Origin: a virus
DNA length: 43,468 nt
IMG/VR virus record: IMGVR_UViG_3300044715_000224
Coordinates: 1 to 43,468 of that record
Strand: one strand, 5' to 3'
The notes below the pieces were generated by a model. That model worked only from the letters and a program-made list of their open reading frames with translations, had not been told where the DNA came from and ran no database searches. The stretch's first letter is position 1; each line of letters begins with the position of its first letter. A program made the translations under genes and the position numbers. Below, in pieces: positions 1 to 41,706 of this stretch.

Positions 1-330
1 ACTGGTCCAGCAATTGTTAGGTGGCCTGTTGGTGCAAGACAAGAGCCACATGCAGACAAAGAATTTCATTCTGGCCCAGAAAAAGGAAGAGCAAATGATT
101 TTCCTTGGTATGACCTAGCTGGTTTATTTTATTTTAACGATGATTATGAAGGTGGAGAATTATATTTCCCACAACATGGAATTGAATTTCAGCCAGTGGC
201 TGGAGCAGCATATTTTTTCCCAGGTGACATGAACTATACACACGGGGTAAGACCAGTAAAATCTGGAAATAGATTTACATCTCCATTCTTTTGGACGATA
301 CAAAAACATACAGGAGAAAAACAACCATGA
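1..330 (+). CDS. 2OG-Fe(II) dioxygenase 1, prolyl-4-hydroxylase-like (5' end outside window)
   Basis: Only the C-terminal 109 codons are present; the frame is open from base 1 to the TGA at 328-330. This is the catalytic double-stranded beta-helix of a 2-oxoglutarate and Fe(II) dependent dioxygenase, which couples decarboxylation of 2-oxoglutarate to hydroxylation of a substrate. Visible iron ligands are H and D of EPHADKE (codons at 49 and 55) and H of YTHGVRP (codon 241); the arginine ten residues later (codon 271) is placed to bind the 2-oxoglutarate carboxylate. Between them is FNDDYEGGELYF, a motif shared in varied form with the next three genes. It overlaps the next start by ATGA, so the genes are probably translationally coupled. 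The enzyme class is clear; the substrate is not shown by the sequence. Confidence 0.88.
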   Translation, partial: TGPAIVRWPVGARQEPHADKEFHSGPEKGRANDFPWYDLAGLFYFNDDYEGGELYFPQHGIEFQPVAGAAYFFPGDMNYTHGVRPVKSGNRFTSPFFWTIQKHTGEKQP

Positions 331-1172
331 GTGAATTAGAACATGTAGAGCTTTATCCAAAAGTTGATGTTTATAGAAATGTCTTAAAAGACCCAGCACA
401 ACTATATGAAGTAATGAACGCTTCAGAAAAAACTTCAGAAGGAAAGTATTTTTTAAAGACCTGGGATCCTTGGGCTCATTTTGGAACGTATACTCAGAAA
501 AAAGATATAAGAGAAGTTTCTGCAGAAATTCAATCTACAGAAATGTTTATTAAAGAAAAAGCATTTGTTGAAGAAGTTGAAGCGGCATACAGTAAGGTTA
601 TAGCGGACTACATAGAAAGACACAACATCGAGTTGCCAGAAGGCTGGCGATTCAGCGGATCCTCTTATTCTAAATATCATGCAGGAGTTGACAACCTTAA
701 GAGTAAACTTACCATGCAGTATCATACAGACCATATAACATCACAAAAAGATATGCCTGGGGATAAATTTTCAATTACCTGCACAATGTATATTAATGAT
801 GATTACGATGGCGGAGATATAGAGTTTTATATTAATGGGCAATTCATTAATCATAAGCCAAAAGCTGGTGACATTTTAGTATTTCCTTCAACAGAGCCAT
901 ATTATCATGGGGTAAAAACAATTAATAGCAATGAGAAATTTTTTGTTAGAAATTTTATAATGACCCCTCACAATGGCACAGAAGAATGGCTTGCCAACCA
1001 AAGAAAATTTGGTGCTTACAAATGGGCAAAAATGGAGCAAGAAAGAATTGATTACGACGATAAAAGAAACATGGTTTATTTTAATGACGGAGTTCCAGTT
1101 ACATATGAAGAGCATGTTGAAAAGCAATTTGGCGTCCCATTTGATGCTGAAAAGGAAAAGGGGATAATGTAA
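327..1172 (+). CDS. 2OG-Fe(II) dioxygenase 2
   Basis: A 281-residue dioxygenase starting at the ATG that overlaps the previous stop; an AGGAG lies about ten bases upstream. The frame could extend to 291, but that would run far into the preceding gene and lacks a ribosome site. Iron ligands are H133 and D135 (YHTDH) and H194 (YYHGVK); K204, ten residues after the distal histidine, fits the lysine used by prolyl 4-hydroxylases to bind 2-oxoglutarate. The core motif is YINDDYDGGDIEF. About 100 N-terminal residues precede the catalytic core and are not recognised. Length and the PSTEPYYHGVK segment match the fifth dioxygenase at 40861 closely, so these two are probably paralogues. The substrate is unknown; neighbouring fibre genes suggest a virion protein. 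Confidence 0.88.
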   Translation: MSELEHVELYPKVDVYRNVLKDPAQLYEVMNASEKTSEGKYFLKTWDPWAHFGTYTQKKDIREVSAEIQSTEMFIKEKAFVEEVEAAYSKVIADYIERHNIELPEGWRFSGSSYSKYHAGVDNLKSKLTMQYHTDHITSQKDMPGDKFSITCTMYINDDYDGGDIEFYINGQFINHKPKAGDILVFPSTEPYYHGVKTINSNEKFFVRNFIMTPHNGTEEWLANQRKFGAYKWAKMEQERIDYDDKRNMVYFNDGVPVTYEEHVEKQFGVPFDAEKEKGIM

Positions 1173-1174
1173 TT

Positions 1175-1927
1175 ATGGAAAGAAATATGGTTATAACTAG
1201 ACACAAGCCAGATATTGTGCAATATGACAACTTCTTAACTCCAGATGAATGTAAATCAATCATTGATGTTCTAGCCATTAAGATGGAAAAAGAACAATTA
1301 AAGTGGATGCCAATTTCATTTTATGAGTCATACTCATCAGGTACTCCAGAGTTAAATGACCCAGACACAATTGCCTGTGGCCTACCAGGAGATTTTTTTG
1401 TAGACCTTAGACAAAGAGTTATAGATGCTACTGCAGACATGGCTGGTAAAGATCCAGAACAAATGTCGCAGATAAGCTGGCACTCTCAAAGATGGGCACC
1501 AGGAGCTTTTGCAAATATGCATTCAGACAATACTTCTAATGATGGAGTTTCGGGAGCATTTACTAGAAGTAGATATGCAACTTTTCTTTATTTAAACGAT
1601 GATTTTGAAGATGGTATTTTAAACTTTAAGCATGGATTAACAATTGTTCCAAAAACTGGAACCCTAGTAACATTTGCTGGAGGATTCCATAACATGCACG
1701 AAGTTACAACAGTTAAAAAATCTATAAGATACACTCTTGGATCATTCTGGGATGATAGAGAAGAAAGTGATTATCCACAGGAAGTTAGAGATGCTTGGGC
1801 GGCAGAACTTGCTGAGGTTAGAGCAATGCAAGCAGATGAAGCTATTGAGTGGGAAGACTACAGAAATAAAGGATTAAGAATAACCCCCCGTGGAGAAGTA
1901 TATCCAGCATCAGAAGTAGAAGGATAG
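1175..1927 (+). CDS. 2OG-Fe(II) dioxygenase 3
   Basis: A 250-residue enzyme of the same superfamily, two bases after the previous stop. Iron ligands are H116 and D118 (MHSDN) and H175 (MHEV), with R185 ten residues later as the probable 2-oxoglutarate anchor. The central motif is LYLNDDFEDGILNF, more divergent than in its neighbours. The N-terminal half includes SFYESYSSGTPEL and a W-H-S-Q-R-W segment just before the iron site, as in many phage prolyl-4-hydroxylase-like proteins. A tail of about 50 mostly acidic residues follows the core. Start choice is moderate: there is a purine run at 1156-1163 but spacing is long, and coupling to the upstream stop is likely. The divergence suggests a different substrate from the other copies. 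Confidence 0.86.
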   Translation: MERNMVITRHKPDIVQYDNFLTPDECKSIIDVLAIKMEKEQLKWMPISFYESYSSGTPELNDPDTIACGLPGDFFVDLRQRVIDATADMAGKDPEQMSQISWHSQRWAPGAFANMHSDNTSNDGVSGAFTRSRYATFLYLNDDFEDGILNFKHGLTIVPKTGTLVTFAGGFHNMHEVTTVKKSIRYTLGSFWDDREESDYPQEVRDAWAAELAEVRAMQADEAIEWEDYRNKGLRITPRGEVYPASEVEG

Positions 1928-1928
1928 C

Positions 1929-2579
1929 ATGCAAAACAATGTAGAGTTTAAGCAATTTATAATGTTTGATCTTAAAGTTTTGGGAACAGATATATGGTAC
2001 TGGGAAAATGCATTAAGCTTTCCAGAACATTTAAAAGATTTTATAGACAAAATAGACCAAGAGCCAGAATCATATTCCAGAATATCTAAATGGGAAAATT
2101 GGACTGCTAGCAATGATTCTAGTCTAGTATACGGTAAAACAAAAACAATAAATGCGTCTGCTTTAAAAAAAACTACTGGATCTGACATGGTAGATAAAAA
2201 AACTCTTTATATTGCTAATAGTTTTTCAATGGCTTTTCAAATGTGCACCGATAGATATTTGGAATCTAGAAGGTTAGATAAAAATAAATATAACCTAAAT
2301 CTTGATCGCATAACAATAAAAGCCTGGAATGAAGGACAATCAATGGGCCCACATTTTGATGGACAAGATGGAAATAAAGATTTAGCATTTTCTTTAGTAG
2401 CATATATTAATGATGATTATGAGGGCGGAGAGATTAATTTCCCAAACCATAATGTGACTATAAAGCCAAAAGCTGGAAGCCTAATAATGTTTCCATCACA
2501 AGAGCCTTACATACACGAAGTAAAGCCTATTGTGTCTGGTACTAGATACATGAGCCCAGCACACGTATATATTAAGTAG
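1929..2579 (+). CDS. 2OG-Fe(II) dioxygenase 4
   Basis: A 216-residue dioxygenase, one base after the previous stop, with GAAGGA about six bases before the chosen ATG; an alternative in-frame ATG lies at 1962. Iron ligands are H142 and D144 (GPHFDGQ) and H196 (YIHEVKP), with R206 ten residues later. The core motif YINDDYEGGEINF is nearly the same as in copy 1, and the ending SPAHVYIK closes the beta-helix. It is the last of the four-gene array and ends 20 bases before the collagen-like fibre gene. Known prolyl 4-hydroxylases of this fold act on proline in proteins; that this one does so is inference from context. Confidence 0.88.
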   Translation: MQNNVEFKQFIMFDLKVLGTDIWYWENALSFPEHLKDFIDKIDQEPESYSRISKWENWTASNDSSLVYGKTKTINASALKKTTGSDMVDKKTLYIANSFSMAFQMCTDRYLESRRLDKNKYNLNLDRITIKAWNEGQSMGPHFDGQDGNKDLAFSLVAYINDDYEGGEINFPNHNVTIKPKAGSLIMFPSQEPYIHEVKPIVSGTRYMSPAHVYIK

Positions 2580-2587
2580 ATAGGTGG

Positions 2588-2593
2588 TATAAT
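2588..2593 (+). promoter_or_regulatory. Promoter -10 for fibre gene, leaderless geometry
   Basis: TATAAT preceded by TGG (an extended -10) sits exactly six bases before the ATG at 2600, and there is no Shine-Dalgarno sequence between them. A transcript starting at the usual distance would begin at or next to the ATG. No convincing -35 is seen 16-18 bases upstream. Confidence 0.6.
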
Positions 2594-2599
2594 AAAAAA

Positions 2600-3712
2600 A
2601 TGAGCACAGGAGTAAATGGCTGGAGATTTCCAGACTACACAGACACCCCAGACGTACCTAGAGACCTAGGAAACCTTGGCGCTGACATTGCGACATTCAT
2701 TGCCGCTAATCCAGGCCCACAGGGCCCTTCAGGCACCTTAGCGGTAGGTACAGTAACTACTGTTAGTGCTGCTACACCAGCATCAGTTGTAAATGTAGGA
2801 ACTGCATCTAATGCTATATTGAATTTAACATTACCAAGAGGTGTTGATGGAATTATTGGTGGTCCTGGTCCCTCTAATGTTTTAAATATTGGAACTGTTG
2901 TTGAAGGCGGCTCTGCTAGCGCAACAATAACTGGAACCAGTCCTTCACAAACATTAAACTTAGTTCTTCCCCAAGGTCCGCAAGGCATACAAGGACCAAC
3001 TGGACCTCAAGGTCCAGCCACAGTAGCTGTTGGAACAACTACAACTGGTGCGGCTGGAACAAATGCCTCAGTTGTTAATACTGGAACGACAGCAAACGCT
3101 ATTTTTTCATTTACAATACCAAGAGGCGCAACTGGCGCAACTGGACCAACTGGACCTCAAGGCATTCCTGGAGACAGCGCAACAATTGACCCAATAGCAA
3201 CAACAATAAGTTTAAATATACCGACATCTTCTGGATACGGAGTAAACTCTAACTGGTACCCATTTGCAAACAATCTTTATTCAATGGGGCAGCCAACAGA
3301 TGTCCCAAATGGAGTTTCATCAAATAGATTCTGGAAAACAATATACTCTAATACTGGAACCATTAATACTTCAGATGAAAGATTAAAAACTGATATTGTT
3401 ACATCTCCACTTGGCCTTGATTTTATAAATAATTTAAATCCCGTAAAATATAAATTCCTTGAAGGTGGAAAAGAAGTAGTTGAGGGAGACATAGTTTCTA
3501 TTCCTGGATCAAGAACACATTATGGACTTATTGCCCAAGAAGTAAAACAAGCATTAGATGAATCTGGTGTTGGAGATTTTGCTGGTTGGGTAAAAATGGA
3601 TATGTCACAAGAAGATTCTATGCAAGGCCTAAGATATGATCAGTTTGTGGCACCATTAATTAAAGCCGTACAAGAGCTTACAGCGAGAGTCAAAGCCCTA
3701 GAAGAGAAGTAA
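2600..3712 (+). CDS. Collagen-like tail fibre with S74 intramolecular chaperone
   Basis: A 370-residue virion fibre. Residues 1-38 are a short N-terminal attachment-like segment. Residues 39-45 are GPQGPSG. Three imperfect repeats of 45-50 residues follow (about 49-93, 97-141, 144-194); each has a beta-rich half with a GTV/GTT...SASV pattern and ends in collagen-type Gly-X-Y triplets (GPQGIQGPTGPQGPA at 126-140, GATGATGPTGPQGIPGDS at 176-193). The C-terminus from S258 is a peptidase S74 domain: TSDERLKTDI gives the Ser/Lys pair (S258, K263), followed by HYGLIAQEVK and a terminal coiled coil. In this family the domain trimerises the fibre and then cuts itself off just before the serine. Whether this is a receptor-binding tip or a head or neck fibre cannot be told. 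It follows four hydroxylase genes directly. Confidence 0.85.
   Translation: MSTGVNGWRFPDYTDTPDVPRDLGNLGADIATFIAANPGPQGPSGTLAVGTVTTVSAATPASVVNVGTASNAILNLTLPRGVDGIIGGPGPSNVLNIGTVVEGGSASATITGTSPSQTLNLVLPQGPQGIQGPTGPQGPATVAVGTTTTGAAGTNASVVNTGTTANAIFSFTIPRGATGATGPTGPQGIPGDSATIDPIATTISLNIPTSSGYGVNSNWYPFANNLYSMGQPTDVPNGVSSNRFWKTIYSNTGTINTSDERLKTDIVTSPLGLDFINNLNPVKYKFLEGGKEVVEGDIVSIPGSRTHYGLIAQEVKQALDESGVGDFAGWVKMDMSQEDSMQGLRYDQFVAPLIKAVQELTARVKALEEK
2744..3181 (+). repeat. Three imperfect 45-50-residue fibre repeats with collagen triplets
   Basis: Coding repeats at residues about 49-93, 97-141 and 144-194 of the fibre. Each starts with a V/I-G-T-V/T segment, continues through (S)ASVVN-G-T or equivalent and LNLTLP/FSFTIP, and ends in Gly-X-Y triplets. 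The first copy has a degenerate triplet part (GVDGIIGGPGP). Proline is mostly in the X position (GPQ, GPT); GIP at 188-190 is the one clear Y-position proline. Confidence 0.75.
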
Positions 3713-3715
3713 GAC

Positions 3716-5521
3716 ATGTCATATAAGTATACTGTCTTAAAAGATAACCCACTTGCATTTTTTTTGTTGGATGAGGTTCGTTCTGGAGAAACTAATTTAT
3801 ACAGCAACTTAACTTCACTGTATTCCACCTATCAAGATTTAAAAGATAATGGAATTTCATATGCAGCAGTTAGCGGACTACCCATTGTAGACTACTCTGG
3901 AAATTCTATGGAGGGCTACGCAATAGATGCTTCAGATATGGAAGTTCTTCCAATAGTAGGAGCTGGCGTCAGAGGTACTGAAATTAATGAAAATATTGAT
4001 CTGTCTTTAAAAGCTTTAGGAATTGCTAATTCTAAAAGCCCAGACAACCCCTTTGCATTTGAAATATGGTTTAGCCCAGATCCTTCTGACCTATCAGAAT
4101 ACTTAATCATTGGAGATGCAACAAATAAAATAGGTTTATTTTATAAAAATGAAAATGTAATATTTAAGTGCACGGAGCAAGAAAAAGTCTGGTCTAAAGT
4201 AGCCAAGACTAAAGTAATGCATATAGTGGGAATATTTTCTAAAGATAAAATGTCTTTGTATATAAACGGATCTCTGGTTTCTGAAAAATTTATTACAGCA
4301 GGGTTTAAATTTACAAATGCATCCATGACTCCTAAAATTGGTCCAGCAAATACTGGAAAGAGATTTGTAGTAGATTCGGCAGCAATATATAATTATGAAA
4401 TAGAAGACACAAAAATTTTAGCACATTATTTAGCTGGGTATAAAGAAACTAAGTATTCACAAATTGTTTATTCTAAAAACGGCGTATTGTTTTCATTAAA
4501 TTCTGTGTTTTTAAAACCAGCAGTTTCATATAGATATCCTGGATCTAAATCCTTAGATTCTATAGTTTCGGGAGACGCATACTATAATCCAACTTATAAA
4601 AGAATAGAATTTGCCCAGACAGAATTAGTAGAAGAAAAAACTTTTGTATTTGAAGAAAGACTTTATGTGCCAAACCCAGAGAACATTGTTTCTTCTAGGA
4701 TATCTTATGGCCAAGATGTGCAAAACATTTTAGTGGAAGCTAAGGTTCCAGGGCAGCCATGGGTAGTATGTAAAAACAATTCTACTCTTCCATATTATAA
4801 TAAAAATGAAGACCTATCTGGTCCAATACTAGACATACGTGTAACAATGAACACTCTAGATTCATCTTTTGACCTCCCCTACTTTGATAAATTGGAAATT
4901 GACTTATACTCAAATAAAGATTTTTATTCTGATAATGGTGGGGGTAAAATATATTCAAACTACGATTATTCATTGGGTTATTATAACTACCCAGTAAGAA
5001 TGCAAAATAAATACAACGGATTGACCATGCAATCTGGTTATGGCTTTTCGGTAGACCTTCCAATACAGCCAAGAACAATAGAAATGTTTTTTACTCCAAG
5101 AGAAGGTAAGAATGTTTTATTCTCATCAGCCTTAGCCTCTTTAAGCTGGACAAATAGCGGGGTAATAACAAAAAATGGAATTAGTGCAATATACGTCAAT
5201 GGAGTAAATAGAACTACATCCACCAACGTATCCCAATTTTTATTAAGTGGAGTATCTCATCACATATTAATAGTGCTAAGCGCAAGCGCCACAAATATTA
5301 AATTAAATCAGAACCAAAGTGGGTCGGAATATGGTGGATCTAATACCTATAGCAATTTAGCATTTTATGAAACCCCATTTACCGCTCCAGAAGCCCTAAA
5401 GAATTATAAGCTGTATTGCTCAGAAAATTCATTTACCATAGAAGACCCAGGCATAACTTTCTCAGAAAGTGCTACTGGCCTAGACAACACAGCCTACTTC
5501 ACAAGATCTTTTGACGTTTAG
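3716..5521 (+). CDS. Tail-associated protein with two LamG/concanavalin-like domains
   Basis: A 601-residue protein beginning three bases after the fibre gene, with a GAGAAG ribosome site. Residues about 105-245 resemble a LamG/concanavalin-A-like jelly roll: FEIWFSPD, a strand ending in IGLFYKN, then MSLYINGSLV and a closing DSAAIYNYEIED segment. Residues about 445-590 repeat the pattern (TIEMFFTPREG, AIYVNGVNR, LAFYETPFT). The middle, about 250-440, is beta-rich and not recognised. These domains usually bind glycans or other surface ligands, so an adhesin or fibre role is likely. It follows the collagen-like fibre and is probably co-transcribed with it. The family is recognised only by pattern; no exact homologue is claimed. 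Confidence 0.65.
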   Translation: MSYKYTVLKDNPLAFFLLDEVRSGETNLYSNLTSLYSTYQDLKDNGISYAAVSGLPIVDYSGNSMEGYAIDASDMEVLPIVGAGVRGTEINENIDLSLKALGIANSKSPDNPFAFEIWFSPDPSDLSEYLIIGDATNKIGLFYKNENVIFKCTEQEKVWSKVAKTKVMHIVGIFSKDKMSLYINGSLVSEKFITAGFKFTNASMTPKIGPANTGKRFVVDSAAIYNYEIEDTKILAHYLAGYKETKYSQIVYSKNGVLFSLNSVFLKPAVSYRYPGSKSLDSIVSGDAYYNPTYKRIEFAQTELVEEKTFVFEERLYVPNPENIVSSRISYGQDVQNILVEAKVPGQPWVVCKNNSTLPYYNKNEDLSGPILDIRVTMNTLDSSFDLPYFDKLEIDLYSNKDFYSDNGGGKIYSNYDYSLGYYNYPVRMQNKYNGLTMQSGYGFSVDLPIQPRTIEMFFTPREGKNVLFSSALASLSWTNSGVITKNGISAIYVNGVNRTTSTNVSQFLLSGVSHHILIVLSASATNIKLNQNQSGSEYGGSNTYSNLAFYETPFTAPEALKNYKLYCSENSFTIEDPGITFSESATGLDNTAYFTRSFDV

Positions 5522-5525
5522 CCTG

Positions 5526-5544
5526 CAATATTTTTAAAATATTG
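5526..5544. repeat. A/T inverted repeat after the LamG gene
   Basis: CAATATTTT-T-AAAATATTG is a perfect 9-base inverted repeat four bases after the stop of the LamG gene. It could fold as a weak hairpin at the 3' end of that transcript, but it has almost no G/C and no T-run after it, so it is not a standard intrinsic terminator. Confidence 0.4.
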
Positions 5545-5564
5545 TCACAGATTAGGACAGAAGA

Positions 5565-5593
5565 TGGACTTTTGTTGAGAATAATGGTAAACT
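5565..5593 (+). promoter_or_regulatory. Promoter for the head operon
   Basis: TGGACT at 5565-5570, a 17-base spacer, and TAAACT at 5588-5593 with TGG in front (extended -10). The ATG at 5603 is nine bases after the -10, so the predicted leader is only about 2-3 bases. No ribosome site is seen. It would drive the small gene, portal and following head genes. Confidence 0.5.
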
Positions 5594-5602
5594 GGTTAAC
5601 AT

Positions 5603-5941
5603 ATGGAAATCTTAAATCAAAAAAGTCAAGTTGTTGAAGAGACACGCCTAGGCATATACGTATGGGAAATGCCAGATGGTCGATGGATCGGCGATGATGA
5701 TGGAAATTTCCTTTCTATAACATCAACCAAAGGCAACAGATCTAAAATTGCCGCACTCGCAGATTCTGTTAGACATTATGGAATTAGCGAAGGCCAGCCT
5801 AAATTTCTTTCAGGCAGAAGAAAAATTGATGATGAAGAATTTGAGCATCAAAACGAAAGACTTAAATGGGGCCTTACTCCAGATCCATTAGATATTGGAG
5901 AATATAAAGATTCAATTTTAAGAGGGGGATCTGTAAGATGA
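5603..5941 (+). CDS. Conserved-looking small protein upstream of portal, function unknown
   Basis: A 112-residue hydrophilic protein, not recognised. It starts with a variable segment, then YVWEMPDGRWIGDDDGNFLSI, a tryptophan-rich beta-like stretch, followed by helical KIAALADSVRHYG and a basic/acidic C-terminus with LKWGLTPDPLDIGEY. There is no signal peptide, membrane segment or cysteine motif. Its stop overlaps the portal start (ATGA), so it is coupled to portal synthesis and is likely a head or packaging accessory protein. In many phages this slot before portal holds terminase; this protein is far too short and has no ATPase motifs. A real gene by coupling, length and neighbour spacing. 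Confidence 0.6.
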   Translation: MEILNQKSQVVEETRLGIYVWEMPDGRWIGDDDGNFLSITSTKGNRSKIAALADSVRHYGISEGQPKFLSGRRKIDDEEFEHQNERLKWGLTPDPLDIGEYKDSILRGGSVR

Positions 5942-7521
5942 CACAATTTTTAGAAGACGGACCAGAAGATACATACGAGGTATCTGTTAAAAATAGTTCA
6001 GACCTATTCTCATTTAAGAAAGAAAAAGAACACGTAGACCCATTTGCAATTGGTATTGATGACCTTAAAAAAGTAAGAGGCCTTGGAACAAACTTTAAAA
6101 GAAAAGTAAATAGAGATTTTGCAAAATCATTTACTGGTAAAGATGGAGCAGCAACACAACAAAATCTATTGCAATCAGCAGTTACTGGTTATGCAATGTT
6201 CGACCTTGTACAACCAGTATATAATCTAGAATATCTTTCTCAAATATATGAAGTTTCAACATACAACTATGCAGCTATTAATGCTAAGGTGGCAAATATT
6301 GTTGGTCTTGGATATTCTTTTATGGAGACAAGAAAAACGAATGATGCCATTGATGCAATAACAGATGATAAGCAATTAGATAGAGCTCGTAGAAAACTAA
6401 ATAAATTAAAACAAGATCTTCAAGACTGGCTAGATGCAACAAATGAGGAAGATACATTTACCGAAACATTAATAAAGGCGTATACAGACCTAGAAGCAAC
6501 TGGTAACGGCTACCTCGAAATTGGTAGAACTACAGGCGGAGACATTGGTTATATTGGCCATATACCAGCAAAAACTATGCGTGTAAGAAGACTTAGAGAT
6601 GGATTTATGCAATTGCTTTATGGAAAAGCTGTATTCTTTAGAAACTTTGGAGATACAGAAACTATTAATCCAATTGGCGATTCAGAGGATAGACCAAACG
6701 AAATCATTCATTTAAAGAAATATACCCCAATGAATAATTACTACGGTATTCCAGATATTGTAGCAGCCCAGATGTCACTTGCGGGAAATGAATTTGCTGG
6801 CAGATACAACCTTGACTACTTTGAAAACAAAGCGGTACCAAGATATATTATTACAGTTAAGGGAGCAAAGCTTTCTCCAGAGTCAGAAAGGAAATTGCTT
6901 GAATTCTTCCAAGTTGGATTAAAGGGTAAAAACCACAGATCACTATATATTCCTCTACCAGCCGACACTCAAGACAATAAAGTTGAATTTAAAATGGAAC
7001 CAGTTGAAGCTGGTGCCCAAGAGTCTTCATTTAATATTTATAGGCAGTCAAATAGAGATGAAATTCTATTGGCACACAGAGTCCCAATTAATAAAATTGG
7101 TGTTCCAGAAGGCGTATCTTTGGCAAACGCTAGAGATGCAGATAAAACATTTAAAGAGCAGGTTTGCCGTCCAGCTCAAATGAGACTTGAAAAAAGAATT
7201 AATTCAATAATTGAAGAAAAGACAGATGCATTAAAAATTAAATTCGAAGAGTTGACTTTGACTGACGAAGATACCCAGTCTCAAATAGACGAAAGATATT
7301 TAAGAATGCAGGTAATTACTCCTAATGAAGTTAGAATTAGAAAAGGAATGATTCCTGTTGACGGCGGAGACGAAATGGTTGAATTAAAGCCACAGCAAGC
7401 AGCTGATCAAAAGGCAACTGCTGGGAAAACTAGGGCTAGGGATTCAGAAAGATCTGCTGCATCTTCCGATAAAGTCGGAGAAGGCAGAAATGCAAAGGGT
7501 GACGGAAAAAGGGTTGACTAA
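5938..7521 (+). CDS. Portal protein
   Basis: A 527-residue portal of the HK97/PBSX-like family, the dodecameric ring at the capsid vertex through which DNA enters and leaves. Family-like features are the N-terminal YNLEYLSQIYEVSTYNYAAINAKV segment (about residues 90-120), the IIHLKKYTPMNNYYGIPD block (about 255-275) typical of this family, NYDYFEN-like NLDYFENKAVPRYII (about 290-310), and the long C-terminal helical part with LLAHRVPINKIGV and LANARDADKTF (about 380-405). The C-terminal about 35 residues are charged and low in complexity. It overlaps the gene before by four bases and is followed by protease/scaffold and capsid, the standard order. Confidence 0.9.
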   Translation: MTQFLEDGPEDTYEVSVKNSSDLFSFKKEKEHVDPFAIGIDDLKKVRGLGTNFKRKVNRDFAKSFTGKDGAATQQNLLQSAVTGYAMFDLVQPVYNLEYLSQIYEVSTYNYAAINAKVANIVGLGYSFMETRKTNDAIDAITDDKQLDRARRKLNKLKQDLQDWLDATNEEDTFTETLIKAYTDLEATGNGYLEIGRTTGGDIGYIGHIPAKTMRVRRLRDGFMQLLYGKAVFFRNFGDTETINPIGDSEDRPNEIIHLKKYTPMNNYYGIPDIVAAQMSLAGNEFAGRYNLDYFENKAVPRYIITVKGAKLSPESERKLLEFFQVGLKGKNHRSLYIPLPADTQDNKVEFKMEPVEAGAQESSFNIYRQSNRDEILLAHRVPINKIGVPEGVSLANARDADKTFKEQVCRPAQMRLEKRINSIIEEKTDALKIKFEELTLTDEDTQSQIDERYLRMQVITPNEVRIRKGMIPVDGGDEMVELKPQQAADQKATAGKTRARDSERSAASSDKVGEGRNAKGDGKRVD

Positions 7522-7538
7522 CCCTAATCAACTGCTAT

Positions 7539-7567
7539 TTGCTTTATAGTAGATAAACCATTAAAAT
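7539..7567 (+). promoter_or_regulatory. Promoter candidate for protease/scaffold/capsid, leaderless geometry
   Basis: TTGCTT at 7539-7544, a 17-base spacer and TAAAAT at 7562-7567. The -10 ends seven bases before the ATG at 7575 and no Shine-Dalgarno site lies between, so the mRNA may start at or beside the ATG. A second possible -10, TATAGT at 7545-7550, has no matching -35. Confidence 0.42.
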
Positions 7568-7574
7568 TAAGCAT

Positions 7575-8918
7575 ATGAACATTGAAAAGTCACAGTGGTC
7601 GACCAATGGCCAAAACATTCATTTGTCTGTCCCATTCACAAAAGTGAATAGGGAGACAAGAACTGTTTCTGGATTCGCTACATTAGACAACGTAGACCAA
7701 ACAGGTGACGTTGTAACAGCAGAAGCAAGCATAAAAGCATTTGAAAGTTTTAGAGGCAATCTTAGAGAGATGCATCAACCATTAGCTGTAGGCAAAGTAG
7801 TTTCTTTTAAACCAGAAACATATTACGATCAAAAGTCAAAAGAATTTTATAATGGAGTTTATGTAACATCATATATCTCTAAAGGCGCACAAGATACATG
7901 GGAGAAAGTTCTTGACGGAACACTTTCAGGTTTTTCAATTGGCGGAAAAATTAAAGAGTCAGATAATGAAATGAATAAAGCAACAGGAGAAACTGTAAGA
8001 TTTATTAAAGATTATGATTTAATTGAATTATCAATTGTTGATTCTCCAGCAAACGAAATGTGCAATATTATTTCAATAGAGAAAATGAACGGCCAACTTG
8101 TATTTAAAGGTATGGCAGCAGATGTAGTTACAGAAAATATTTTTTATTGCGAAGAAAGCGATTCTGTTTTTATCTCAACAGACAAAACGTATTCTTCTCC
8201 AGTTACTGGAAAAGAAGCTACGCTAATTGGATGGGTCGAAAGCTCAGACATAAACAAATCAAAAGAGATAGATAAGATTCTTGCTTCATTTAAGAAGTCA
8301 AGAGTTCCGTTACCTGGAATACAAACAATAGCAAAACAGGTTAACGTACAAGGAGGTAATGAAGTGGAAAAACTAAACGTAAAAGCTGAAGATTCAACAG
8401 TAGTAACTGCAGAAACAGCAATCGTTGAAGAGACCGTAGTAGCATCTGATGCACCTGCAGTCGAAGATGCACCAGACACTGATAACTCAGTGGAAGATGC
8501 AGACTCTGCTTCTGTAAATGTCTTTAAGTCGGTTGATGCTCCTCAAGCAGAAGCTGCAGTTGAAGAACCTGATTTTGCAAAAATGTTAGTAGACCTAAAG
8601 GGATTCTTTGCAGATACTCTTAGCAAGGCTACAGAGGCAAATGCAGTACAGGTTTCAGAAATCAAAGAAACTGTAGAGACTTTTAGTAAGAGCGTAAATG
8701 CTCAAATTACAGAGTTAGCAGAAAAGCACAGTGCACTTAGTGCCGCTGTCACAGAAATAAAGGGCACCATTGATGGTGTTCAAAAGCGTGTAGATGCCGT
8801 AGAAGGCGATACAGCAATTAAAAAGTCCTCAGACCTTGGCGGGTCTGTTGCACCAGCAGTAAACAAATCAAAATGGAACGGTTCTTTCCTCGGTTCCGTA
8901 AACGAAATATTTAACTAG
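7575..8918 (+). CDS. Prohead protease with C-terminal scaffold region (XkdF/HK97-like)
   Basis: A 447-residue protein with two parts. Residues 1 to about 180 are a prohead serine protease: VSGFATLDNVDQTGDVV at the start, REMHQP with H67, and LSGFSIGG with S121 as the likely catalytic histidine and serine, then DYDLIELSIVDSPAN. Such enzymes mature the capsid by removing scaffold and capsid N-termini. Residues about 185-255 are an unassigned linker domain. From about 264 to 447 it is acidic, alanine/valine-rich, then coiled-coil, as in scaffolding proteins, ending in FLGSVNEIFN. A strong internal ribosome site at 8351-8357 before GTG 8364 suggests the scaffold part is also made alone. It lies between portal and capsid. 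Confidence 0.85.
   Translation: MNIEKSQWSTNGQNIHLSVPFTKVNRETRTVSGFATLDNVDQTGDVVTAEASIKAFESFRGNLREMHQPLAVGKVVSFKPETYYDQKSKEFYNGVYVTSYISKGAQDTWEKVLDGTLSGFSIGGKIKESDNEMNKATGETVRFIKDYDLIELSIVDSPANEMCNIISIEKMNGQLVFKGMAADVVTENIFYCEESDSVFISTDKTYSSPVTGKEATLIGWVESSDINKSKEIDKILASFKKSRVPLPGIQTIAKQVNVQGGNEVEKLNVKAEDSTVVTAETAIVEETVVASDAPAVEDAPDTDNSVEDADSASVNVFKSVDAPQAEAAVEEPDFAKMLVDLKGFFADTLSKATEANAVQVSEIKETVETFSKSVNAQITELAEKHSALSAAVTEIKGTIDGVQKRVDAVEGDTAIKKSSDLGGSVAPAVNKSKWNGSFLGSVNEIFN
8351..8366 (+). promoter_or_regulatory. Internal ribosome binding site with in-frame GTG start
   Basis: AGGAGGT at 8351-8357, one of the best Shine-Dalgarno matches in the window, lies inside the protease gene, six bases before GTG at 8364 in the same reading frame. 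A near-perfect site inside a gene at a domain boundary suggests a second start. Confidence 0.6.
8364..8918 (+). CDS. Nested scaffolding protein from internal in-frame start
   Basis: Translation from GTG 8364 would give a 184-residue protein, starting MEKLNVKAED, identical to the last part of the protease-scaffold polypeptide. It is acidic and A/V-rich for about 75 residues, then has an amphipathic helical part (DFAKMLVDLKGFF to VDAVEGD) and a basic end, which fits an internal scaffold that binds capsid subunits through its C-terminus. Phage lambda C and Nu3 are a known example of this in-frame nesting. The sequence shows the start signal; production of the short form is inferred. Confidence 0.5.
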   Translation: MEKLNVKAEDSTVVTAETAIVEETVVASDAPAVEDAPDTDNSVEDADSASVNVFKSVDAPQAEAAVEEPDFAKMLVDLKGFFADTLSKATEANAVQVSEIKETVETFSKSVNAQITELAEKHSALSAAVTEIKGTIDGVQKRVDAVEGDTAIKKSSDLGGSVAPAVNKSKWNGSFLGSVNEIFN

Positions 8919-8934
8919 GGTAGGTGAAATAAAA

Positions 8935-9984
8935 ATGAGTAATGAAACATTAGAAAAAGCAATCGCAGCAGGCACAACAGCCTCAACTGGTTTTGCATCA
9001 ACAACTGGAGGAGCAGGAGTACACACAGCGTCTGAAAACGGCAACGGTGGTCTTCTTAATCCAGAACAATCAGCTCGCTTCCTAGACTATATGTTCGATT
9101 CAACCGTAATTGGAAAAGTCGCACGTACAGTTCGAATGAAGTCAGACACAACAGAAATTGATCGTATGTCAGTAGGAGAAAAGCTTGTTAAGCTTGCATC
9201 CGAAGGAGATAATACAGGTGTTAACTCAGCTGTAACTTTCTCAAAGATCTCTTTAACAACAAAGAAGCTACGCATGGACTGGGAGCTTTCAACAGAATCA
9301 CTAGAAGATAACATCGAGGGTGCAGATCTAGAAGATCACATTGCACGTTTGATGGCGACACAAGCAGGAAATGACATCGAAGATGTTATTCTTAACGGTG
9401 ACGAATCTCTAACAACCGATGCTCTTTACAAATCATTTAATGGTGTTGTAAAGAAAGCTAAGACCTCTGGTCGTGTAGTAGATGCAGCGGGTGCAGTAAT
9501 TTCTCGTGCTGTATTCAACTCAGCGCTTAAGGCTCTTCCACGTAAGTACAAGCAACGTCGTACAGACCTTCGCTTCCTTGCAGGATCAAACTTGATCCAA
9601 GATTACTTATACTCTAACTCACAGAACATCCAGAACGTTACTCCACAAGATATTGCCTCTGGCATTATCCGTGGTGATGTTCCTGTTCTAGGAGGTCCTG
9701 CAGGATATGTAGCTCCATACGCATTTGGTATTCCAATCGTTGAAGTTCCACTTCTTCCAGAGACACAAACTGGTACATACGCAAGCCCATCAGGATCACA
9801 CGGAGATGTCCACTTGACATTCCCTAACAACGTGGTAATTGGTGTAAAGCGTGACGTAACAGTTTACCGCTTCTTCTGGCCACGTAAGGACTCAATTGAG
9901 TACACAATGTATACTCGTGTTGGCGTTCAAATCGAGCAGGCAGACGCTTGGGTAGTTGTAAAGAACGTTAAGATAGCTTCCTAA
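8935..9984 (+). CDS. Major capsid protein, HK97 fold
   Basis: A 349-residue major capsid protein. Residues 1 to about 35 are a flexible small-residue N-arm. Then come LNPEQSARFLDYMFDSTVIGKVARTVRM, MDWELSTESLEDNIEG, and the helical segment HIARLMATQAGNDIEDVILNGDE, all typical of the phage capsid family. The C-terminus has VHLTFPNNVVIGVKRDVTVYRF and VVVKNVKIAS. No separate cleaved delta domain is present, which fits a separate scaffold next door. Codon use stands out: arginine is CGT/CGC/CGA throughout, with no AGA, unlike portal or protease, a sign of very high expression. A strong terminator follows at once. Confidence 0.93.
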   Translation: MSNETLEKAIAAGTTASTGFASTTGGAGVHTASENGNGGLLNPEQSARFLDYMFDSTVIGKVARTVRMKSDTTEIDRMSVGEKLVKLASEGDNTGVNSAVTFSKISLTTKKLRMDWELSTESLEDNIEGADLEDHIARLMATQAGNDIEDVILNGDESLTTDALYKSFNGVVKKAKTSGRVVDAAGAVISRAVFNSALKALPRKYKQRRTDLRFLAGSNLIQDYLYSNSQNIQNVTPQDIASGIIRGDVPVLGGPAGYVAPYAFGIPIVEVPLLPETQTGTYASPSGSHGDVHLTFPNNVVIGVKRDVTVYRFFWPRKDSIEYTMYTRVGVQIEQADAWVVVKNVKIAS

Positions 9985-10000
9985 TTAGGAATTAATCTAA

Positions 10001-10040
10001 GAAAAGCCCCCAATTAATTTTGGGGGCTTTTCATTTTAAT
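10001..10040 (+). terminator. Intrinsic terminator after the capsid gene
   Basis: A 12-13-base stem, GAAAAGCCCCCA at 10001-10012 pairing with TGGGGGCTTTTC at 10021-10032, followed by ATTTT. This is a strong G+C stem with a T-rich tail, 16 bases after the capsid stop codon. Confidence 0.9.
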
Positions 10041-10056
10041 TATACAATGCTATAAT
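10028..10056 (+). promoter_or_regulatory. Promoter for the connector operon
   Basis: TTTTCA at 10028-10033, a 17-base spacer, and TATAAT at 10051-10056 with TGC in front (extended -10). The -35 box overlaps the T-run of the capsid terminator, so transcription stops and restarts at one spot. The transcript would carry a leader of about 21 bases with the ribosome site AAAGGAG. Confidence 0.68.
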
Positions 10057-10083
10057 GGTTTTACCTAGAAAAAGGAGTAATAA

Positions 10084-10479
10084 ATGTCTTTTGACACATT
10101 AAAGGTCGGAGAGCTAAAAGCAATTGCAGAAGATTTCGCAGTTGAAACAGAAGGACTTAAGAATAAGCAAGACATAATTGCAGCACTATCAGAAGAGGGT
10201 GTTACATACGAAGTGTATACTAAGACACTAAAGGATGTAGAAGATGCAAAAGAGGAAATTGAAATCCTCCCAGTATTTGATCCAAAGGCAGAGCGTACAG
10301 AAGATACTGTACTAGTTAGAATGACAAGGGCAAACTTTAGGTATGACATTTTGGGCCACACGTTCACACAGGAACACCCATTTGTAGCAATGCATAAAGA
10401 TTCTGCTCAAGAAATTTTTGATATAGAGGAGGGGTTTCGTTTAGCCACACCAAAAGAAGTACAGGATTATTACGGCTAA
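10084..10479 (+). CDS. Head-associated protein with Rho-N/SAP-like N-terminus
   Basis: A 131-residue protein with AAAGGAG seven bases before the ATG. Residues about 5-38 (LKVGELKAIAEDF ... LKNKQDIIAAL) look like the small three-helix Rho N-terminal/SAP fold, which often binds nucleic acid and also occurs in phage head proteins. The rest (TEDTVLVRMTRANFRYDILGHTF ... FRLATPKEVQDYYG) looks like a beta-rich capsid-surface or connector domain. It lies between capsid and head-tail adaptor, a slot often holding head decoration or connector proteins. The function is inferred from position; the fold call is only by pattern. Confidence 0.6.
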   Translation: MSFDTLKVGELKAIAEDFAVETEGLKNKQDIIAALSEEGVTYEVYTKTLKDVEDAKEEIEILPVFDPKAERTEDTVLVRMTRANFRYDILGHTFTQEHPFVAMHKDSAQEIFDIEEGFRLATPKEVQDYYG

Positions 10480-10494
10480 CCTTAACAACACAAA

Positions 10495-11475
10495 ATGGAA
10501 ATTATAGTAGGAACAAATGCTCCAGTAAAGCAAAGAGTCTTTTGGAAAGGCGGCATATCTAGAGCAGATTCACTTCCAACAGTTAAGTTTTATGACATAA
10601 CTGAAGACCCAGCAGTTACTCCATCTATTAATCCATTAACTCTTTTACACACACAAACAGCAGAAGAAGTAGACACGGACTTTGGAGTATACAGTGTATA
10701 CCCACCATTGGCTCTTACAAACAGACCTAGATCATTAAAGCTAGTATGGGAATATCAGGTTGATGGACAGTTAGTAACAAAAGAGCATAAGATTTTTGTT
10801 GTAACTCCATACGTAGACTTAACGCAGGCAGCAGATGCATTAGGGTTTGGATTTGATCAATCTGACCCAAACTATAAAACATTTGCTGACTTGGTTGCTG
10901 CAGAGCGATATGCTAGAAAGTTAATTGAAAACTATACTGGACAGCAGTTCCATTTATATGATGATGTAAATATTGTTTATTCAACTGGTGCAGATGTTTT
11001 ACCGTTGCCTCAAAAGATTAACCAGTTACACGAGCTTTATTTAAATGACATGCTTTTGGTTGATACAATTAACAACATTAATAATTTAAATATGCCAGTT
11101 TCGGTATCTGAAAGTGGATTTGGGTTAAGAGTTGATAGATCAAACGCTTTAGACAATGTGGTATATTACGCAAACGGCATGATTCCTCCAAGCATTAATG
11201 ATAGTGGAAGAGGTATATTTGTAAACGGCGGAACATACAGGGTTGCTGGTAGATATGGTTGGCAAAATGTACCAGACGAGGTAGAGCTTGCTTGTATTGA
11301 ATTAATGAGAGACTTTTTCTCTAAAGATAAAGAGTGGCGAAATAAATACATAAAGAGTATACAAACATTTGACTGGCAGTTCCAATACGATACATCAGCA
11401 TTTAGTGGCACAGGAAATAACTATGCAGACCAGCTATTGCTACCATACGTCACAAACAAAATGGTAGTTATTTAA
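10495..11475 (+). CDS. Head-tail adaptor/connector protein
   Basis: A 326-residue protein. The N-terminal about 110 residues form a beta-sandwich-like region (VKQRVFWKGGISRADSLPTV ... KLVWEYQVDGQLVTKEHKIFVV). The C-terminal part has the helical and beta arrangement of gp6/gp15-like adaptors: DLVAAERYARKLIENYTGQQFHLYD (about 132-156), a strand region, then VELACIELMRDFF (about 261-273) and a final KSIQTFDWQFQYD. The ER-A-K-IE..TGQ-F pattern is characteristic of connector proteins that bind the portal ring. No clear Shine-Dalgarno site is seen, so translation may depend on the gene before, whose stop is 15 bases upstream. The added N-terminal domain makes it longer than typical adaptors. Confidence 0.68.
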   Translation: MEIIVGTNAPVKQRVFWKGGISRADSLPTVKFYDITEDPAVTPSINPLTLLHTQTAEEVDTDFGVYSVYPPLALTNRPRSLKLVWEYQVDGQLVTKEHKIFVVTPYVDLTQAADALGFGFDQSDPNYKTFADLVAAERYARKLIENYTGQQFHLYDDVNIVYSTGADVLPLPQKINQLHELYLNDMLLVDTINNINNLNMPVSVSESGFGLRVDRSNALDNVVYYANGMIPPSINDSGRGIFVNGGTYRVAGRYGWQNVPDEVELACIELMRDFFSKDKEWRNKYIKSIQTFDWQFQYDTSAFSGTGNNYADQLLLPYVTNKMVVI

Positions 11476-11476
11476 C

Positions 11477-11905
11477 ATGAACAATCTGGTCGATTCTATT
11501 TTCAATATGAAAGTAGATATATATATGCAAGAAGACTATCAGGACCCAAATACTGGTGCTATTAAAAAGTCTTGGATATATGAAAAGACACTCCCTTGTT
11601 TTGCAAAAGGAATGATATCTAACTCATCTTCTGCAAGAAGCGGAGACAATAGGTCTATATCAATTAAATATGAAAACACTCAAACTATAGAAATTAGAAC
11701 ACAAACACCAATTACGTATAGACAAAAAATAACTAACATTAAAGATTCTTCCAACAATGTAATATGGTATGAATTAAATTACCCAAATGATACACCCACA
11801 GTCTTTGAGATAGTAAGCTCAACACCAATCACAGATCCGTTTGGAACACTTATGGCATACAATTCAATTGCCAAAAGGTCGGAGAACCAGATAATTGGAG
11901 ACTAA
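11477..11905 (+). CDS. Head-tail stopper/joining protein (putative)
   Basis: A 142-residue, beta-rich protein starting one base after the adaptor stop. MKVDIYMQEDYQDPNTGAIKKSW and a run of short strands (ISIKYENTQTIEIRTQTP, VIWYELNY, TVFEIVSSTPITDPFG) fit the small beta-barrel of gp16/FII-like stoppers, which close the connector once DNA is packaged. The MxVxIY...DpnTGai.ksW opening is typical of that family. The assignment rests on pattern and on position between adaptor and tail terminator. Its end overlaps the TTG start of the next gene by 11 bases. Confidence 0.55.
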   Translation: MNNLVDSIFNMKVDIYMQEDYQDPNTGAIKKSWIYEKTLPCFAKGMISNSSSARSGDNRSISIKYENTQTIEIRTQTPITYRQKITNIKDSSNNVIWYELNYPNDTPTVFEIVSSTPITDPFGTLMAYNSIAKRSENQIIGD

Positions 11906-12689
11906 CGGAGTAGCACTACTACAAGCAGCATCTGGCCTAGAAAGATTCATGGTTGGTTCATCTGCCGCTGGAGTTATTAAAGACAGTAACGTAGCACAGA
12001 TATCTGCATTCTTATATTACCAAGCGAATGTAGCAGCAAAGCTTACGTCAAACAAAGCATTTCAAAGACTTTTTAAAACTACAATATTTAATCAAATAGA
12101 CAAAGACTTTGGACTATTTATAGACTCTCAAGCACGTACAAAGCCAAAATCATTACACCATGTATATGAATGGAATAAAACTGGTCAGACTACTGGTAGA
12201 TTATTTAAACTAAACAGAATGGATTCAATTGGACTTTCATTTAAAATTAACTATGATTTAAAATTATCTAAATCTTCCGTGCCGACAAAAAATAGAAAAC
12301 AAAAGAGTAGATACGTTTTTGCAAATAAGGCTGCAGTAATGGAAAAAGGCATGCCAATTACAATCAGACCAAAATCAGCTGAAAGGCTGGTATTTGAAAT
12401 TGATGGAGAAGTTGTATTTATGCCAAAGGGCAAGTCAGTTACAGTAAGAAGCCCAGGCGGTAGAGCATCTACCAATCAATTCAATCTTGCATACAGCAGA
12501 TATTTTAGTGGGCCTATGGTATCTCATTCTATAAAGGCGTCTGGATTTCAAAATATATTTGGATCTAAGTTTGAAAAGGCAATGAGAGTTCCTTCTTCTA
12601 TATCCAAGGTGCGTTATTCTTTTAGTCCAGGTACAATTAGACTACAGGCGGACTCAGCATTAACTGAACAATTTGGAGGGGTAGCATAA
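11895..12689 (+). CDS. Neck / tail-completion protein (putative)
   Basis: A 264-residue basic protein. The start is taken as TTG 11895, with a GGAG ten bases upstream inside the previous gene; the next in-frame ATG at 11949 would lose 18 residues. The N-terminal half is helical (AFLYYQANVAAKLTSNKAFQRLFK), the C-terminal half is basic and beta-like (MEKGMPITIRPK, GEVVFMPKGKSVTVRSPGG). The position between stopper and tail terminator matches the HK97 gp10-like tail-completion slot, but the protein is longer than that family and no motif decides the matter. Confidence 0.5.
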   Translation: METNGVALLQAASGLERFMVGSSAAGVIKDSNVAQISAFLYYQANVAAKLTSNKAFQRLFKTTIFNQIDKDFGLFIDSQARTKPKSLHHVYEWNKTGQTTGRLFKLNRMDSIGLSFKINYDLKLSKSSVPTKNRKQKSRYVFANKAAVMEKGMPITIRPKSAERLVFEIDGEVVFMPKGKSVTVRSPGGRASTNQFNLAYSRYFSGPMVSHSIKASGFQNIFGSKFEKAMRVPSSISKVRYSFSPGTIRLQADSALTEQFGGVA

Positions 12690-40860: not shown

Positions 40861-41706
40861 ATGACTACTGACTTTTCAGATATTAAAAAAATTGTAGTGG
40901 CCCCACAAATTGTAATATATAAAAACATATTTAAAAACAGCAAAGAGATAATTGAATTGCTGCAGGATAGTAGAAAAATTTCGTTCTTTAATGAATGGAG
41001 GGAATGGTATGGTCAAGGATTTAGAAGAGACGCAGACTTTAGTCTTTTAAATACTATAGACCCTGGAACCGATACATTTCTTAATTTAGAAAAACAATAT
41101 ATATTAGAAATAAATAAGTGTATGAATTTCATTAGAGAAGACTATCTTAATGAGTTTGGAAAAGAAAATGGAATATGGCCTTCATTTATAAAAGATTGGG
41201 AATCGCTAAAAGATACAGATAAAAAATACTGGATTGATTTTTTTAGATATGACGTAGATTTTCAAGGAAAGGTAAACCCTTCTGGATTAATCATGGAATA
41301 CCATGTAGATGAATTGCCAGTACCTGGGGAAACAAAAACAAAGAGGCACGTTGCCACTGTTAATTTTTATTTAAATAATAGTTATGACGGAGGGGAAATT
41401 TGTGTATACGATTCTATATCAAATAATACATACATGTATAAGCCTATGCCTGGAGATGCCGTTATAATGCCGTCAACAGAACCATTCTATCACGGAGTAA
41501 AGCCATTTAGTAAATCAGATAGGTATTTTTTAAGAGCGTTTATTGATTCTGATGTTAAAGACGAAATTGAGTGGAAAAAACAATACAACATAACAATTGG
41601 ACAAGACAATTTAAATAATGTTAATACAGAAGAATCTTATGTAGAAAAAGATTTACAAACCATAAAGCTGTCTATCCCATCTAACCTTATAGAAGTTAAA
41701 GGCTAG
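40861..41706 (+). CDS. 2OG-Fe(II) dioxygenase 5
   Basis: A 281-residue dioxygenase that starts right after the previous stop (TAAATG). Iron ligands are H148 and D150 (EYHVDELP) and H211 (FYHGVKP), with R221 ten residues later. The core motif is YLNNSYDGGEICVY, with N-S where the others have D-D. PSTEPFYHGVKP is nearly the same as in dioxygenase 2, and the length is identical (281), so it is its closest paralogue, although it is 40 kb away among replication genes. It is followed by a nuclease-like gene and a DUF6065-like gene; the substrate may differ from that of the four upstream copies. Confidence 0.87.
   Translation: MTTDFSDIKKIVVAPQIVIYKNIFKNSKEIIELLQDSRKISFFNEWREWYGQGFRRDADFSLLNTIDPGTDTFLNLEKQYILEINKCMNFIREDYLNEFGKENGIWPSFIKDWESLKDTDKKYWIDFFRYDVDFQGKVNPSGLIMEYHVDELPVPGETKTKRHVATVNFYLNNSYDGGEICVYDSISNNTYMYKPMPGDAVIMPSTEPFYHGVKPFSKSDRYFLRAFIDSDVKDEIEWKKQYNITIGQDNLNNVNTEESYVEKDLQTIKLSIPSNLIEVKG

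Follow-up and report, generated by a model that had tools for sequence, protein, structure and literature searches.

A conserved phage array of putative 2OG-Fe(II) hydroxylases linked to a Phe-Phe-x-Pro-Pro repeat protein

Introduction

Multiple 2OG-Fe(II) oxygenases are among the commonest unexplained genes of aquatic phages and are usually filed as metabolic genes. In cyanophages, where several copies of this superfamily (phrog_61) occur per genome, they have been read as nitrogen/2OG or DNA-repair genes (Sullivan et al. 2010, PMC3037559), and in the records we read they are dispersed near replication or tRNA genes. Among other viruses, Mimivirus encodes both a repetitive structural protein, collagen, and the enzymes that modify it, including a lysyl hydroxylase/glycosyltransferase (PMC9546862), while PBCV-1 encodes a single viral collagen prolyl hydroxylase (vCPH, PDB 5c5t). 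Bacterial and algal prolyl 4-hydroxylases (P4Hs), such as those of Bacillus (5hv0/3itq), Pseudomonas (4iw3) and Chlamydomonas (3gze, with (Ser-Pro)5), act as single enzymes on proline-rich or unfolded peptides, without a dedicated repeat protein or a multi-enzyme phage cassette.

Here we analyse a 43,468-nucleotide stretch of freshwater phage DNA (IMG/VR record IMGVR_UViG_3300044715_000224, positions 1 to 43,468; hereafter the window). An earlier note, made from the sequence alone, had described four consecutive dioxygenase genes with HxD...H and a basic residue ten positions after the distal histidine, directly upstream of a fibre with Gly-X-Y triplets and an S74 chaperone, and had proposed that the array hydroxylates this fibre, or a LamG protein, to tune its stability or receptor binding. 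By comparison with hundreds of relatives, we find that these genes are part of a larger cassette, whose conserved partner is a tail-type protein carrying Phe-Phe-x-Pro-Pro (FFxPP) repeats.

Results

The window begins inside an array of five oxygenases

Window positions 1–2579 hold four consecutive plus-strand genes, D1 (1–330, 5' end missing), D2 (327–1172, 281 aa, overlapping D1 at an ATGA), D3 (1175–1927, 250 aa) and D4 (1929–2579, 216 aa), all of which exceed the Pfam cut-off for 2OG-FeII_Oxy_3 (PF13640), at 35.4, 37.4, 31.8 and 47.4 bits, respectively. Each contains HxD, the distal His and a basic residue at +10, which is Arg in D1, D3 and D4 and Lys in D2. The four genes described in the earlier note are thus real. 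They are, however, truncated by the window edge: the note had allowed that the array may continue upstream of base 1, and it does. A contig that is 100% identical to window 1–12576 (L003) contains the complete D1 (L003:7725–8402, 225 aa), preceded, going upstream, by a DUF6065 gene (PF19541, 100.2 bits, L003:6991–7728), a fifth oxygenase (D0, also above the PF13640 gathering score) and an FFxPP-repeat protein (L003:5006–6211) with FN3 and an FFPP/FFAPPG segment. The repeat gene and D0 are therefore seen in this identical contig rather than in the window itself. The order is FFxPP-repeat protein, D0, DUF6065, D1, D2, D3, D4. Across the five orthologous groups, the iron triad and the basic residue are invariant or nearly so in 57–94 non-redundant orthologues of each, including 57 for D1, in which HxD and the distal His are invariant; the D2, D3 and D4 groups contain 75, 62 and 83 members.

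Sequence and structure comparisons place three of the enzymes close to prolyl hydroxylases. The AlphaFold model of D4 (pLDDT 94.7) has PBCV-1 vCPH as its best Foldseek match (E 7e-11; phmmer 6.5e-5), albeit at about 19% identity, with 3gze, PHD2 and the Bacillus P4H also among its matches. However, PolD and PasI are close Foldseek neighbours as well, in line with a PF13640 fold that also includes small-molecule and nucleic-acid hydroxylases. D0 is nearest to Bacillus P4H, and the nearest PDB chains to D1 are PiuC, P3H1 and Bacillus P4H; the closest cellular structures to D0, D1 and D4 are the bacterial and algal P4Hs. The relationship is weak for D2, and D3 has no PDB relative by sequence. For DUF6065, a sequence search of the PDB returned nothing significant, while Foldseek matched its predicted structure to dUTPase (beta-clip fold) with E 1.3e-4 and a target TM of 0.6–0.7, but an rmsd of about 6–8. 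We found no literature on DUF6065 in open-access PMC, to which our literature searches were confined.

The collagen-like fibre is not the conserved partner of the array

The gene downstream of D4 (2600–3712, plus strand) encodes a tail fibre with a strong S74 chaperone domain (E 6e-14). Its Gly-X-Y stretches are real but short, with a longest run of six triplets (1 of 2000 shuffles reaches six), and Pfam Collagen scores only 13 bits against a 27-bit cut-off. It is followed by a LamG-domain tail protein (3716–5521, plus strand; PF13385, E 7.5e-13), which belongs to a backbone shared with array-less relatives. Stanwilliamsviridae actinophages such as Streptomyces phage Coruscant have the same portal-protease-capsid-LamG backbone (protease 44.7% identity), but no oxygenases, DUF6065 or FFxPP repeats at the equivalent place.

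To determine whether the fibre accompanies the array, we examined 52 dereplicated arrays and found that 29 have a collagen-like/S74 fibre beside them and 23 have none. The condition that the note itself had named as refuting its proposal, related phages that keep the array but lack any such fibre, is hence fulfilled. Conversely, one relative (contig L363) keeps the fibre and the LamG gene while losing D0–D4 and DUF6065. In addition, proline in the fibre triplets is found at X 108 times and at Y 32 times (5 to 1 in the window fibre), whereas collagen P4H acts on Y. The note's interpretation is therefore supported only in part: a phage cassette that hydroxylates a virion protein remains the best-supported reading, but the substrate it named is probably wrong.

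FFxPP repeats and the enzyme cassette occur together

Every dereplicated array with enough upstream sequence (29/29), as well as 42/42 new loci in a DUF6065-seeded set, follows a tail-type protein (FN3, often Hint) carrying FF-x-PP hexads. In the array-seeded set, 43 loci with upstream sequence have the repeat, and the one array locus scored negative (L022) has four shorter copies, which fall under the threshold. To approach this independently of the enzymes, we searched by repeat codons alone: 49 of 54 dereplicated repeat genes have the cassette within 4 kb, 48 of them with three or more genes, compared with 16 of 452 large control ORFs that have three or more such genes within 4 kb. The other five (on contigs L184, L219, L223, L234 and L248) lie on contigs that carry array or DUF6065 genes elsewhere. 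A repeat pattern lacking one base, in effect a frame-broken control, returned nothing. These associations are linkage by descent within mainly one phage clade plus a second lineage, and are hence not fully independent. In the second lineage, contigs carry a core D0-DUF6065-D1 beside a small FFxPP protein; PHROG hits in one contig (baseplate wedge, phrog_9206 head protein) indicate a contractile-tailed phage, while searches for gp23 and the T4 portal gave no hit, which is uninformative as the positive controls were not detected either.

The hexads are under strong protein-level constraint. Between perfect hexads, FF is conserved in 811/812 and PP in 812/812 units, while x3/x6 change in 39–48% of adjacent pairs and the F/P codons change only synonymously. 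The repeats lack Lys and Arg. Furthermore, repeat and cassette switch together: L363 has the same FN3-repeat-Hint scaffold with FGFTP repeats (L363:6244–7821) in place of FFxPP, and a different enzyme cassette. Comparing FFxPP loci (n = 86) with FGFTP loci (n = 34), D0 was found in 76 versus 1, DUF6065a in 69 versus 0, E4 in 1 versus 17 and E1 in 0 versus 10, and none has both repeats, although the FGFTP cassettes are heterogeneous.

Outside these phages, tblastn with DUF6065 or the repeat protein (low-complexity filter on) matched no isolate phage in a collection of 50,697 records, and the repeat pattern gave 11 weak hits in 84,980 cellular genomes, none with oxygenases.

Discussion

We consider it likely that the window genes are the 3' part of a conserved cassette that post-translationally oxidises the FFxPP repeats of its first gene's product, and of further FFxPP proteins elsewhere in the same genome. 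According to this model, the tail-type repeat protein would be made with 4–35 hexads in a flexible, proline-rich stretch; the prolyl-hydroxylase-like D0, D1 and D4 would use 2-oxoglutarate, Fe(II) and O2 to hydroxylate Pro-4 and/or Pro-5, while the others would act on another position, possibly Phe, or add a second hydroxylation; DUF6065, with its predicted dUTPase-like fold, would assist as a binding or accessory subunit; and the modified stalk would be built into the tail, as a stiffened or adhesive surface element comparable in principle to hydroxylated plant extensins or mussel foot proteins. Our data establish the anatomy of the cassette, the intact active sites, the reciprocal co-occurrence, the protein-level constraint on FF and PP and the co-switching of repeat and cassette, whereas enzymatic activity, including hydroxylation of peptidyl proline, the modified residue, the location in the virion and the biological role are inferred from sequence and predicted structure, without biochemical or proteomic data. 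Also, five enzymes exceed what simple proline hydroxylation needs.

Compared with PBCV-1 vCPH, here five orthologous groups form an ordered cassette with DUF6065 and a repeat protein, in phages. Compared with the Mimivirus system, in which the substrate is collagen Gly-X-Y and the chemistry is on lysine, the repeats here are non-collagen hexads in bacterial viruses, with no collagen requirement. If our reading is right, phages invest 4–6 kb in chemically tailoring their own particle, DUF6065 would gain a functional context, and small repeat-specific hydroxylases would become available for modifying designed peptides. A broader possibility, which we regard as about as likely as not, is a repeat-specific chemical code, in which virion proteins share one scaffold (FN3, aromatic/proline repeat, Hint) with interchangeable repeats (FFxPP or FGFTP, perhaps others), each installed with its own dedicated multi-enzyme oxidation cassette, together making modified low-complexity surface fibres; such a dedicated modification system for phage tails has apparently not been described, although our literature searches covered open-access PMC only, so that prior description in closed papers or preprints is not excluded.

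Among the alternatives, it is possible but unlikely that the oxygenases act on small molecules, nucleotides or host targets, as auxiliary metabolic genes or in DNA modification or repair or 2OG/nitrogen signalling, with their proximity to tail genes being incidental. This would agree with the published reading of the cyanophage enzymes, with the dUTPase-like predicted fold of DUF6065 and with an oxygenase/DUF6065 pair near replication genes (see below). However, the cyanophage relatives do not form cassettes on repeat proteins, the reciprocal linkage and the co-switching would remain unexplained, and the nearest solved relatives of D0, D1 and D4 are peptidyl-prolyl hydroxylases.

A RiPP-like route, in which the FFxPP segment is modified as a precursor and then cleaved or transferred by the Hint domain, for example onto a surface nucleophile, rather than remaining as a stalk in the tail, is similarly doubtful. 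A Hint/intein-like domain follows the repeat in many lineages, with profile matches to bacterial intein-like domain and intein structures (2lwy, E 2e-9, and other inteins), although Pfam matches for the L003 protein are below cut-off. Cys or Ser-1 is usually present and several of these domains end in a canonical VHN motif, but the block-B His is often Gln and the window lineage ends in IA rather than HN. Many repeat proteins have no Hint domain, having short tails or, in contig L166, an S74 domain, and the FN3, PASTA-like and S74 partners look structural. Hydroxylation of the collagen-like fibre or the LamG protein, despite direct adjacency, is the least likely reading given the co-occurrence, L363 and proline-position data above and the occurrence of LamG in Coruscant, which has no oxygenases there.

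A further oxygenase gene (40861–41706, plus strand; PF13640, 43.8 bits), with best hits in the D2 group at 25–29% identity, and a second DUF6065 gene (42008–42706, plus strand; PF19541, 74 bits) lie in the replication region of the window, next to recA and DNA polymerase genes. Their position among replication genes counts against our main reading, but the oxygenase is possibly part of the same modification machinery.

The oxygenase array extends beyond the sequenced window

Profile searches confirmed that the first 2579 bases of the window contain four consecutive + strand genes, D1–D4, all of which pass the Pfam cut-off for 2OG-FeII_Oxy_3. D1 is truncated at base 1, D2 (ATG at 327) overlaps the stop codon of D1, and D3 and D4 follow within 3 bases. 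Each gene encodes HxD, a distal His and a basic residue ten positions further on (Arg, Lys, Arg and Arg, respectively), and these residues are invariant or nearly so in 57–94 non-redundant orthologues per group. The observation of a four-gene array made in the earlier note therefore holds. The fibre that the note placed beside the array has a good S74 domain, but its Gly-X-Y runs are short, the longest being six triplets, and its Pfam Collagen score lies below threshold.

To determine whether the array continues upstream, we examined IMG/VR contig 3300034102_001642 (locus L003), which is 100% identical to window 1-12576. This contig shows upstream, in order, tail genes including an Mtd_N-domain protein; a 401-aa protein (L003:5006-6211) consisting of FN3, FFPPFFPPFFPPG(FFAPPG)4FFSPPG and a Hint/intein-like C-terminus; D0, a fifth oxygenase; DUF6065; and the complete D1. 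The Mtd_N-domain tail protein just upstream of the repeat protein (L003:3137-4972 and relatives) varies strongly in length between otherwise close relatives, from 611 to over 1000 aa, and is rich in internal repeats. The rest of that contig has two more oxygenases (locus L456) and a second FFxPP+Hint protein (L364:4247-6424, 725 aa) about 5 kb upstream of the first; several relatives also have two. The window itself carries one more D2-like oxygenase (40861-41706) and a second DUF6065 (42008-42706), a pair lying between recA and the window end, among replication genes.

The portal, protease, capsid and LamG proteins match those of Stanwilliamsviridae actinophages, with the protease 44.7% identical to that of Streptomyces phage Coruscant. 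In Coruscant, the region upstream of LamG has no oxygenase and no FFxPP, and the cassette is therefore an addition in the environmental clade. An actinobacterial host is inferred only.

The array is linked to an FFxPP-repeat protein

Next, we asked which protein belongs to the array, using several starting points. Seeding with the array, all but one of the array loci with more than 1.5 kb upstream scored positive for the repeat protein, and the exception, L022, has a shorter version with four copies, under the threshold; two loci in that list without the cassette (L143 and L152) also lack the repeat. Seeding with a DUF6065 alignment, 42 of 42 new loci with more than 2.5 kb upstream have the repeat protein on the same strand. 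Among dereplicated arrays, 29 of 29 with more than 2 kb upstream have the repeat protein. To approach the question without reference to the enzymes, we searched for the repeat by codon pattern, in a non-exhaustive search, and found that 49 of 54 dereplicated repeat genes with at least 3 kb downstream have oxygenase/DUF6065 genes within 4 kb, 48 of them with three or more, usually 3–1300 bp away. The five others (loci L184, L219, L223, L234 and L248) lie on contigs that carry array or DUF6065 genes elsewhere. As a rough control, 16 of 452 large ORFs in protease-selected loci have three or more such genes within 4 kb downstream. The same codon pattern in 84,980 cellular genomes gave 11 stretches, none near oxygenases.

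By contrast, the S74/Gly-X-Y fibre is present in 29 and missing from 23 of 52 dereplicated arrays with at least 2.5 kb downstream. Also, in 28 non-redundant fibres Pro is found at X 108 times and at Y 32 times, whereas collagen P4H hydroxylates Y-position proline. The persistence of the array in relatives without such a fibre is the outcome that the earlier note had set out in advance as refuting its proposal, in which the array hydroxylates the neighbouring fibre. The interpretation given in the note is thus only partly supported, since modification of a virion protein remains the favoured idea while the substrate it named is probably wrong.

FF and PP of the repeat are constrained at the protein level

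In 97 non-redundant proteins, the hexad is F-F-[A/S/G]-P-P-[G/S/A/L/R...]. Units lying between two perfect hexads have FF in 811 of 812 and PP in 812 of 812 cases. Between adjacent hexads, x3 and x6 change in 39% and 48% of pairs, while F and P codons differ only synonymously, in 11–29%; FF and PP are what is conserved. In contrast, the N-terminal partners (FN3, PASTA-like) and C-terminal partners (Hint, S74, short tails) vary. The Hint domain matches bacterial intein-like structures, but its catalytic residues are incompletely kept across these tail proteins, with Cys or Ser at position 1, a block-B His that is often Gln and a terminal HN that is kept or lost; these domains are perhaps partly degenerate.

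The oxygenases form five orthologous groups

Clustering of 403 non-redundant oxygenases resolved them mainly into five orthologous groups (D0 94, D4 83, D2 75, D3 62 and D1 57, including the reference), rather than five copies of one enzyme. The order REP-D0-DUF6065-D1-D2-D3-D4, where REP is the repeat protein, recurs with duplications and local rearrangements, and the presence of distinct, conserved groups suggests distinct sites or steps. A second, contractile-tail-like lineage (loci L182, L222, L184, L212, L166 and L249) carries a core D0-DUF6065-D1, with D1 on the opposite strand, plus another oxygenase beside a small, PASTA-like FFxPP protein of 100–150 aa. Its contigs, of 98–205 kb, are mostly without the PF04860 portal, and one has baseplate-wedge and phrog_9206 head-protein hits.

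D4 (predicted model, pLDDT 94.7) is closest in fold to PBCV-1 vCPH, algal P4H, PHD2 and bacterial P4H, and D0 and D1 are nearest in sequence to Bacillus P4H and to PiuC/P3H1, respectively; no such affinity was established for D2 and D3. The predicted structure of DUF6065 (pLDDT 92) matches dUTPase-like folds with modest scores.

Repeat and enzyme cassette are exchanged together

A natural swap is provided by contig G030 (116 kb), which has no match to the FFxPP pattern. This contig keeps the fibre and LamG and has the same FN3-repeat-Hint scaffold, but the repeat is FGFTP (L363:6244-7821), and its downstream enzymes include an Asp/Asn beta-hydroxylase family member, a PF13640 oxygenase and only a distant DUF6065-like protein. 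A pattern search for FGFTP repeats found 87 stretches. Comparing 86 dereplicated FFxPP loci with 34 FGFTP loci, we found D0 in 76 versus 1, D1 in 65 versus 1 and DUF6065a in 69 versus 0, while the groups designated E1, E4, E5 and E10 were found in 0 versus 10, 1 versus 17, 0 versus 9 and 0 versus 10, respectively; no locus has both repeats. The FGFTP loci (L365–L451; for example L363:6244-14975) represent a parallel system of FGFTP-repeat proteins with Hint domains and their own cassettes, which are heterogeneous and only partly resolved, and include the Asp/Asn beta-hydroxylase family, other oxygenases, glycosyltransferase-like genes and unassigned families.

A putative substrate-enzyme cassette

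Taken together, we read the array as the enzyme half of a substrate-enzyme cassette, for which the best-supported mechanism is hydroxylation of Pro, and possibly Phe, in the FFxPP repeats of a tail-type protein. The gene order, the intact active sites, the linkage found from either direction, the constraint on the repeat and the swap are demonstrated by our sequence data, whereas enzymatic activity, the modified site, location in the virion and purpose are inferences from them. In this view the cassette would work like viral collagen modification, but it fails the substrate criterion of that family. No match to DUF6065 or to the repeat protein was found by tblastn in 50,697 isolate-phage records. 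Within the open-access PMC literature, to which our survey was limited, the closest published reading for aquatic phage 2OG oxygenases is metabolic or DNA repair (PMC3037559). The cyanophage and methylophage 2OG oxygenases that we inspected (loci L452–L455) lie scattered among replication, tRNA or baseplate-region genes.
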